Part shown: positions 12,531 to 57,314 of the stretch, piece after piece
Layout of the letters: every line of letters starts with the position of its first letter
How positions within the stretch are numbered: the stretch's first letter is position 1
Source: Sphingomonas natans
GTDB taxonomy: Bacteria; Pseudomonadota; Alphaproteobacteria; Sphingomonadales; Sphingomonadaceae
Length of the DNA stretch: 64,000 nt
NCBI RefSeq assembly: GCF_030546695.1
Contig: NZ_JAUOTP010000001.1
Coordinates: 124,001-188,000 of the forward strand
Direction: 5' to 3'
Notes under the pieces: model-generated
Databases searched by the model: none
Told to the model about the DNA's origin: nothing
What the model saw: the letters and a program-made list of their open reading frames with translations, nothing else
Program-made: the position numbers and the translations under genes

Positions 12531-12556
12531 GCCCTCGACAAGCTCAGGGCGAACGG
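12531..12556. repeat. Single REP copy supplying a gene end
   Basis: The stretch GCCCTCGACAAGCTCAGGGC followed by GAACGG matches one arm of the local REP family (CCGTTCG-CCTGAGC-TGTCGA-GG, read on the minus strand). The TGA inside the repeat is the stop codon of the upstream gene. Confidence 0.75.
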
Positions 12557-29162: not shown

Positions 29163-29617
29163 GGGATCGCCGGCCCAACGATTGAGAGGGCGGGGCCGAG
29201 AGCAAGTCCTTCGACAGGCTCAGGACGAACGGAAAGAGGAGCGTCAGGACGAACGGACAGAGCAGGTTGAGGGCGAGCGGAGAGAGGGGCGCCATTCCTT
29301 CCATCCCCGTTCGTCCTGAGCGAAGTCGAAGGACGTGCCTCATGGGATACGGCCAGCTCGTGAAGCCGGGCCCAATTTCCTGCGATAAGGGCCTCCTTCT
29401 TGGCGCGTGACCAGCCTTTCAGGCGCTGCTCCGCCTCGAGAGCTTCGAGCCGCGTTACGAAGCCTTCCGACCACACGAGTGCGACGGGTTGCCGGCGCGC
29501 CGTAAAATCACAGCCCTTGCCGTGATGATGCTGGGCGATCCGCCGATCAAGCGCGTCCGTGTGGCCGACATAGTAACGGCCGTCCGCACAGCGCAGCATG
29601 TAGGTCCAGAAGGTCAT
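29159..29617 (-). CDS. GIY-YIG nuclease-type protein with a repeat-derived tail
   Basis: 152 residues. Residues 1-93 are a single GIY-YIG domain: YMLRCADGRYYVGHTDALDRR carries the two Tyr-containing motifs and Arg, then VTRLEALEAEQRLKGW supplies the Glu/Lys helix. Catalysis would cut DNA. The remaining about 59 residues ([11 protein letters not shown]...SVRPEPVEG...) are translated REP sequence, low in complexity and probably not functional. The gene sits inside a 358-bp inverted-repeat element (29307-29664). Its reading frame escapes the element and ends over the dnaG start codon. Function in the cell is unknown. Confidence 0.8.
   Translation of the reverse strand: MTFWTYMLRCADGRYYVGHTDALDRRIAQHHHGKGCDFTARRQPVALVWSEGFVTRLEALEAEQRLKGWSRAKKEALIAGNWARLHELAVSHEARPSTSLRTNGDGRNGAPLSARPQPALSVRPDAPLSVRPEPVEGLALGPALSIVGPAIP
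29203..29290. repeat. Degenerate REP copies inside the GIY-YIG tail
   Basis: Three decaying copies of the minus-oriented REP end occur in tandem: GACAGGCTCAGGACGAACGG near 29213-29232, then CAGGACGAACGG near 29245-29256, and a GGGCGAGCGGAGAG remnant after it. They lie between the left terminus of the 358-bp element and dnaG. Confidence 0.6.
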
Positions 29618-29664
29618 ACCGAATCGCGTGTAGCACGTCCTTCGACTTCGCTGAGGACGAACGG
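29307..29664 (-). mobile_element. 358-bp GIY-YIG/REP element, copy 1
   Basis: A 32-bp terminus at 29307-29338 (starting CCGTTCGTCCTGAGCGAAGT) is repeated inverted at 29633-29664 with 31 of 32 bases identical. Between them is one GIY-YIG gene whose ATG is 47 bases inside the right end. The element has the same total length, the same outer CCGTTCG and the same gene content as the copy at 47135-47492. No target-site duplication is obvious. Calling it mobile is inference from this architecture. Confidence 0.6.
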
Positions 29665-36995: not shown

Positions 36996-37095
36996 CGTCA
37001 TCCTGAACTTGTTTCAGGATCCAGCACCCGAACCCGCCAACGGCGCGCGGCTGGAAAGGGCGGAACTTGGATCCTGAAACGAGTTCAGGATGACG
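36996..37095. repeat. Palindromic repeat, CGTCATCCTGAA type
   Basis: A 27-bp arm at 36996-37022 (CGTCATCCTGAACTTGTTTC and on to CAGGATCC) is repeated inverted at 37069-37095 with one mismatch. It is a different repeat family from the one just before it. Together they fill the space between the pilin gene and the frameshifted HTH gene. Confidence 0.85.
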
Positions 37096-47019: not shown

Positions 47020-47108
47020 CCGTTTGCCCTGAGCCTGTCGAAGGGCCGTCCTGCCTTTTGCCTGTGGGCGGAAGAAGGACAGTGCTTCGACAAGCTCAGC
47101 ACGAACGG
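47020..47108. repeat. REP pair downstream of secA
   Basis: A left arm starting CCGTTTGCCCTGAGCCTGTC at 47020 and a right arm ending CTTCGACAAGCTCAGCACGA ACGG at 47108 are inverted copies of the local REP unit, separated by a short spacer. It lies 21 bases after the secA stop and may serve as its transcription stop. Confidence 0.8.
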
Positions 47109-47134: not shown

Positions 47135-47492
47135 CCGTTCGGCCTGAGCTTGTCGAAGGCCCGTCCTTCTGTTTCGATGCGGCATGAGCTTCTGGGCTTA
47201 CATGCTGCATTGTCGGGGCGGGCGATTTTACGTCGGGCATACCGACGATCTTGAACGACGTGTGGCCAGCATCAGGCTGGCATGATCCCCGGTTTCACCG
47301 CCGAGCGATTGCCGGTCGAGCTTGTCTGGTCGGAGCGTTTTGTGACGCGGATCGAAGCGCGCGAGGCCGAAAAGCGTCTGAAAGGCTGGAGCCAGGCCAA
47401 GAAGATGGCGCTGATCCGCGGGGATTGGGATCAGGTCAGCTGGCTCGCCCGTGGCAAGAAGGACGGGCCTTCGACGAGCTCAGGCCGAACGG
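47135..47492 (+). mobile_element. 358-bp GIY-YIG/REP element, copy 2
   Basis: A 36-bp terminus at 47135-47170 (starting CCGTTCGGCCTGAGCTTGTC) is repeated inverted at 47457-47492 with 35 of 36 bases identical. One GIY-YIG gene lies between, its ATG 49 bases inside the left end. Length, outer CCGTTCG and gene position equal those of the copy at 29307-29664, although the enclosed genes have diverged. Mobility is inferred from the shared architecture. Confidence 0.6.
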
Positions 47493-53640: not shown

Positions 53641-53755
53641 CTCCCCTCCCGCTTGCGGGAGGGGGCGGGGGTGGGGCAGTCCATCCTCAAGATTGAGCGC
53701 CGGCTCGACGGCGCGCATCCCACCCCCGACCCCTCCCGCAAGCGGGAGGGGGGAG
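53641..53755. repeat. 115-bp palindromic repeat between efp and suhB
   Basis: The left arm starts CTCCCCTCCCGCTTGCGGGA at 53641 and the right arm ends with its inverted copy at 53755 (GCAAGCGGGAGGGGGGAG), each arm about 36 bases. Each arm is itself a CCCGC-TTG-CGGG hairpin. It belongs to a family different from the CCGTTCG REPs and may reduce read-through from efp. Confidence 0.85.
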
Positions 53756-57213: not shown

Positions 57214-57298
57214 CCCGCTTGTCCTGAGCGAAGTCGAAGGACGTGCAGCACGCGGTGCGCTCGGAGCACGTGCTTCGACTACGCTCAGCACGAACGGG
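57214..57298. repeat. REP pair inside the nuo operon
   Basis: 33-bp arms at 57214-57246 and 57266-57298 are inverted copies (28 of 33 matching) of the local REP unit (CCTGAGCGAAGTCGAAGGAC type). It fills the 117-base nuoC-nuoD gap, the only sizeable gap in the operon. A stable hairpin here could lower expression downstream or protect the upstream mRNA end. Confidence 0.85.
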
Positions 57299-57314
57299 GC
57301 GGGAGGGATTGCTC

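Follow-up and report, generated by a model that had tools for sequence, protein, structure and literature searches.

Two GIY-YIG genes framed by inverted REPs

Within the window (the whole 64-kb stretch of DNA that was analysed) lie two elements of 358 bp, each with a GIY-YIG nuclease gene or its remains framed by inverted REPs, and nowhere else in the window do exact inverted seeds of 14 bases lie 200–700 bp apart. Element 1 (29307–29664, minus strand) sits between dnaG and yqeY, with arms at 29307–29338 (plus strand) and 29633–29664 (minus strand) that agree at 31 of 32 positions and carry their CGTTCG tag outermost; element 2 (47135–47492, plus strand) sits downstream of secA, with arms at 47135–47170 (plus) and 47457–47492 (minus) that agree at 35 of 36. 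CCGTTCG opens both outer edges of each element, and the tag at all these termini is CGTTCG, not CGTC. An earlier note on this DNA had the coordinates, match counts and outer edges right.

A GIY-YIG domain (Pfam PF01541) was found in both elements (E = 2e–16 in the first and 1.5e–12 in the second, whose protein was scanned against Pfam with an X placed at a frameshift), starting 47 and 49 bp, respectively, inside one end. The nuclease domain of element 1 (29351–29617, minus strand), of the UPF0213/COG2827 type, is intact: it scores 60.4 bits against the Pfam cutoff of 22.6 and is the sole Pfam domain in an ORF that continues through the REP as far as 29159. No NCBIfam model matched the protein. 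Its nearest solved structures belong to UPF0213 (1zg2, E = 5e–21; 1ywl, E = 5e–17), a fold search returned UPF0213 and Slx1 nucleases, and its own predicted structure is confident (AlphaFold2 pLDDT 88); Pfam and fold alike point to a GIY-YIG enzyme and not to an HUH/Y1 tyrosine transposase. Purifying selection acts on the family (median pN/pS 0.26). In element 2 the gene (47184–47476, plus strand) was recovered as two tblastn pieces, 47184–47270 and 47261–47476, that lie in separate frames with no single ORF, about one base having been lost near 47255–47261. We read it as a frameshifted relic, so that the earlier note's GIY-YIG gene in each element stands for the domain and its position in both, and for an intact gene in the first only. 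In G003, the nearest relative, an intact orthologue of the element 2 gene occupies the same site.

Further REPs are scattered through the window. By pattern match, an extra REP of the element 1 type lies beside that element (29210–29231, minus strand), a single REP of the same CGTTCG type lies at 12534–12555 (minus strand), and a gene-less, outward-tagged, REPIN-like pair that is absent in G003 lies beside element 2 (47021–47107). Another gene-less pair (57216–57300), found by pattern match and by comparison with G003, has a single-strand folding z of –3.9; the roughly 112-bp insertion that contains it does not occur in G003, whose two adjacent genes overlap at this point. From such comparisons, gene-less REP pairs evidently turn over. 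A CGTC-type pair at 36996–37095 is of the class that frames another nuclease subfamily in the same genome, which has three more GIY-YIG loci (five in total), flanked likewise by inverted repeats that belong to other REP types. The element 1 site is likewise occupied in G001, G006, G007 and G022, the element being absent in G002–G005.

Generality of the nuclease/REP framing

A family profile was used to gather GIY-YIG loci at three ranks (the window's genus, its family and its phylum) and in a general collection of genomes, the loci fetched being the best-scoring profile matches. We devised a framing test in which the 170 bp preceding a gene were aligned with the 170 bp that follow it, the latter taken as reverse complement, and an inverted match score of at least 14 was required. 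This score was reached by 81% of 153 GIY-YIG genes, compared with 0.7% when stretches of equal size were placed at random within those loci and 3.2% for 313 neighbouring ORFs (Fisher P = 3e–71, a value that is too small because many loci are orthologues and not independent); the 3.2% was the same whether neighbouring ORFs were taken at any size or limited to 600 bp or less. When left and right arms were mismatched between different loci, just 13% reached the score. After removal of duplicates, 119 of 147 distinct UPF0213-family loci (from Pseudomonadota and a few other phyla) were framed by inverted repeats, and several of the unframed remainder had one-sided or diverged REPs. The loci differ in repeat sequence and are spread over several genera and orders and a few other phyla. 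The association between GIY-YIG genes and inverted REPs is general, and it bears out the earlier note's tie to REP-type palindromes in a RAYT/REP-like layout with a different enzyme.

Only part of the family shows the pairing, since inverted repeats were not found at gram-positive YazA, Legionella and phage relatives (0 of 7, five gram-positive and one phage among them). The UPF0213/YazA/YhbQ proteins (COG2827) resemble the REP-framed nucleases in fold and include the nearest solved relatives; unlike them, the gram-positive YazA genes share an operon with trmN and rsmI and have no inverted repeats. Relatives from Anaerolineales and Bacteroidetes (L045, L051–L053) are also flanked by inverted repeats, of GAG..TCGA type, those of Bacteroidetes scoring near or under the threshold, so the pairing may extend beyond Pseudomonadota. 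Relatives on plasmids numbered 12, all called non-mobilizable, and there were 23 phage relatives, all distant.

The constant length of 358 bp proposed in the earlier note was rejected as a coincidence: the 119 elements span 339–579 bp (median 403), lengths of 357–363 bp being common among close relatives.

REP classes, their co-variation with the nuclease and their dispersal

Two broad classes of framing repeat were recognized among the GIY-YIG loci. Class 1, to which both elements of the window belong, has a GAGC...GTCGA core and a CGTTCG-like tag; class 2 has a CGTC tag, a stem of 8–9 bp, a short loop of 4–5 bases and a CCA tail. Framing REPs are oriented with the tag outward and the tail toward the gene. 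REP class changed 3 times along a tree of 114 nucleases, against a mean of 37 for shuffled classes; single branches of this tree are weak because it rests on only 88 columns, which does not hold for the clustering of REP class. REP similarity also follows protein similarity (rho 0.60; permutation maximum 0.06). Folding distinguished the types, CGTTCG-type hairpins being weak (z –1.3 to +1.0) and CGTC-type hairpins stronger (z –2.6 to –3.9).

CGTTCG-type REPs numbered 0–247 per genome in 80 genomes of the family, with 156 in the genome of the window and about 0 for reversed-pattern controls. With the subfamily split made by the start of the profile match, hence approximate, and over genomes that are not phylogenetically independent, the median count of CGTTCG-type REPs was 30.5 in genomes with the matching nuclease subfamily vs. 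1 in those without, and that of CGTC-type REPs was 25 vs. 3. Two genomes, G060 and G059, have 59 and 40 CGTTCG-type REPs, respectively, and no detectable nuclease of the matching subfamily; these REPs are possibly remnants following gene loss. Free REPs occur mostly in outward-tagged, gene-less pairs, a REPIN-like arrangement.

REPs with the CGTC tag were described in 2013 by Di Nocera as lacking a dedicated transposase, with no associated enzyme found (PMC3733652). They predominate in alphaproteobacteria, their spread had been without a candidate enzyme, and the CGTC-1 REPs are the dRS3 repeats of Neisseria (PMC3733652).

Palindromes at DUF559 genes

Inverted palindromes, either CCCCTCCCGC..GCGGGAGGGG or CCCTCTCCC..GGGAGAGGG, were found at 25 of 28 loci of DUF559 (PF04480) genes, compared with 0.3% for controls, when loci were tested as for GIY-YIG (L155, L157 and L160–L162, from the yqeY–dnaG site; L226–L255; L257, L258 and L261–L271). 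DUF559 is apparently a second, unrelated nuclease family with palindromic repeats of its own. A gene-less pair of DUF559-type palindromes lies in the window at 53644–53750. Our literature search found no paper joining DUF559 to such repeats and none on GIY-YIG with REPs.

Movement of cassettes and occupancy of sites

Among the seven genomes of the window's own genus, spacers could not be aligned in full for any pair with and without an element, and another genus, g80, was therefore used for reading junctions. At the yqeY–dnaG site in 88 g80 species, 14 have a GIY-YIG cassette (with a partial DUF559 match as well in one species), 36 a DUF559 cassette and 38 neither, and the state of the site changes 23 times on the gene tree of these species. 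Several unfilled sites retain an intergenic remainder of 4–40 bp. The check for empty sites that the earlier note proposed has been answered in its favor, as occupied and unoccupied forms of one site exist.

In three g80 species, whose YqeY proteins match the query at 99–100% identity, 1–3 bases (0.5%) separate the REP-bounded stretches of 419 bp, while the flanking genes differ by 3–5%, the left spacer by about 5.5% and the right spacer by 2.2%; the cassette is therefore younger than its surroundings. This comparison points to one recent between-species transfer delimited by REPs, in which the left edge of the transferred cassette is the REP and the right edge is less sharp.

Other features were seen at the same site. 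Among close species, GIY-YIG cassettes and DUF559 cassettes of two kinds take each other's place there (L256–L345), the DUF559 cassette of close relatives following the same left spacer as the GIY-YIG cassette. At L256 and L259 the left palindrome of a DUF559 cassette persists beside a GIY-YIG element. Several g80 species (L281, L287, L291, L311) have a full REP pair before the nuclease gene and a further REP past the right arm, which places the gene within a REP cluster.

Gene copies share a handful of positions across genera, namely yqeY–dnaG, rnc–era, nrdR–RNA methyltransferase and secA, which argues that movement of the gene is occasional and that the whole element moves rarely. The earlier note had counted a single conserved locus, or genes without flanking repeats, against its proposal; most loci are flanked, and most copies sit at these few positions common to genera, which goes part of the way towards the first of these refutations. 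The target duplications that it suggested looking for were not seen at the junctions examined, where spacers have diverged.

Discussion

We consider it probable that each of these loci is a REPtron in which a single-domain GIY-YIG nuclease replaces the RAYT. As in the REPtrons and REPINs of RAYT (TnpA-REP), inverted REPs frame the gene, every enzyme lineage has a REP family of its own, and pairs are dispersed (PMC6006769); the enzyme gene is framed by its own dispersed REP family, as expected of a REPtron. RAYT REPtrons apparently do not transpose as a unit (PMC6006769), and the two systems are also alike in patchy occurrence with a gene that seldom moves as a unit (PMC6006769). They differ in the enzyme, an HUH tyrosine transposase there and a hydrolytic GIY-YIG nuclease here, and in the tags, GT[AG]G there and CGTTCG or CGTC here.

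The framing repeats of one nuclease subfamily share the tag, stem, loop, CCA tail and dimer arrangement of the CGTC REPs (PMC3733652); whereas the 2013 paper had no enzyme, a nuclease gene is framed here. This suggests that the nuclease may be the missing partner enzyme of these REPs, as RAYT is for another repeat class. Each nuclease would recognize its own REP, probably exposed as a single strand or hairpin, and would cut at or near it. Repair of the cut by copying, a homing-like gene conversion, would spread REP pairs, occasionally transfer the gene cassette and maintain the similarity of the two arms. The chemistry of GIY-YIG enzymes is hydrolytic, with no covalent strand-transfer intermediate, and we favor copying repair for this reason. 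Free-standing homing endonucleases are comparable in their GIY-YIG domain, their patchy occupancy and an edge-delimited replacement that is compatible with copying repair; unlike them, the genes described here are framed by dispersed palindromes and are intergenic, not inside a conserved target gene. While the coupling of nuclease and REP is observed in the genomes, recognition and copying are our favored interpretation of it, and the REP-rich genomes G059 and G060 with no matching nuclease, the weak CGTTCG-type hairpins, the conserved gene positions and the lack of visible target duplication count against the REPtron model. The replacement seen at the yqeY–dnaG hotspot could also be ordinary homologous recombination in which the nuclease has no part.

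A 2025 report is said to describe GIY-YIG site-specific ssDNA nucleases (Ssn) that act on a repeated Neisseria sequence, in which case the earlier note's statement that no such element had been described may be wrong as to the enzyme. Ssn likewise has a single GIY-YIG domain and a target repeated in the genome (here, the 156 CGTTCG-type REPs), and the present nuclease is probably site-specific, of the Ssn kind. The identity of the CGTC-1 REPs with dRS3 agrees with the reported activity on a Neisseria repeat. An Ssn-like housekeeping role, in which the nuclease acts on single-stranded REPs and tunes DNA uptake or recombination while REP spread is not its doing, would fit what is reported of the Neisseria enzyme, the dRS3 identity, and the conserved positions and purifying selection of the genes; by itself it leaves the REP framing of the gene unexplained, and likewise the patchy occupancy and replacement, and we consider it improbable.

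Still less probable, in our view, is an autonomous minimal transposon that moves whole as a REP-bounded unit with the GIY-YIG protein as its transposase. A REP-bounded cassette recently common to several species, and one site seen with and without the element, are what it predicts, yet positions are conserved across genera, length varies, target duplications were not seen, and the window's genome has five loci against its 156 dispersed CGTTCG-type REPs. The mobility proposed in the earlier note is accordingly upheld for one recent between-species transfer in one clade and not for a freely transposing unit. Passive association, in which intergenic REPs (terminators) come to frame small dispensable genes by chance, draws on the REP-richness of these genomes and the preference of REPs for intergenic gaps, and is strongly disfavored as very improbable, given the 3.2% framing of neighbouring ORFs, both of all sizes and up to 600 bp, the tracking of the nuclease tree by REP class and the absence of repeats at the YazA, Legionella and phage relatives (0 of 7).

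Taking the GIY-YIG and DUF559 results together with the REPtron reading, we see about an even chance for the wider proposal that small nucleases of at least two unrelated kinds, GIY-YIG and the Vsr-like DUF559, are each the dedicated engine of their own palindromic repeat families, parallel to the RAYTs, with GIY-YIG as the enzyme that the CGTC REPs had lacked and with cassettes of the two kinds replacing each other at the same intergenic sites. Relative to Ssn, co-evolution, gene framing and site replacement are added here unless they are in that report; should it already frame ssn genes with repeats, what is new narrows to how general the pairing is, its link to CGTC REPs, its co-evolution and the turnover of sites. 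The matched pairing of nuclease and REP makes the spread of CGTC REPs directly testable, and the pairs offer many natural combinations of enzyme and target for site-specific nucleases. The pairing also suggests several origins of REP systems, involving different catalytic folds.
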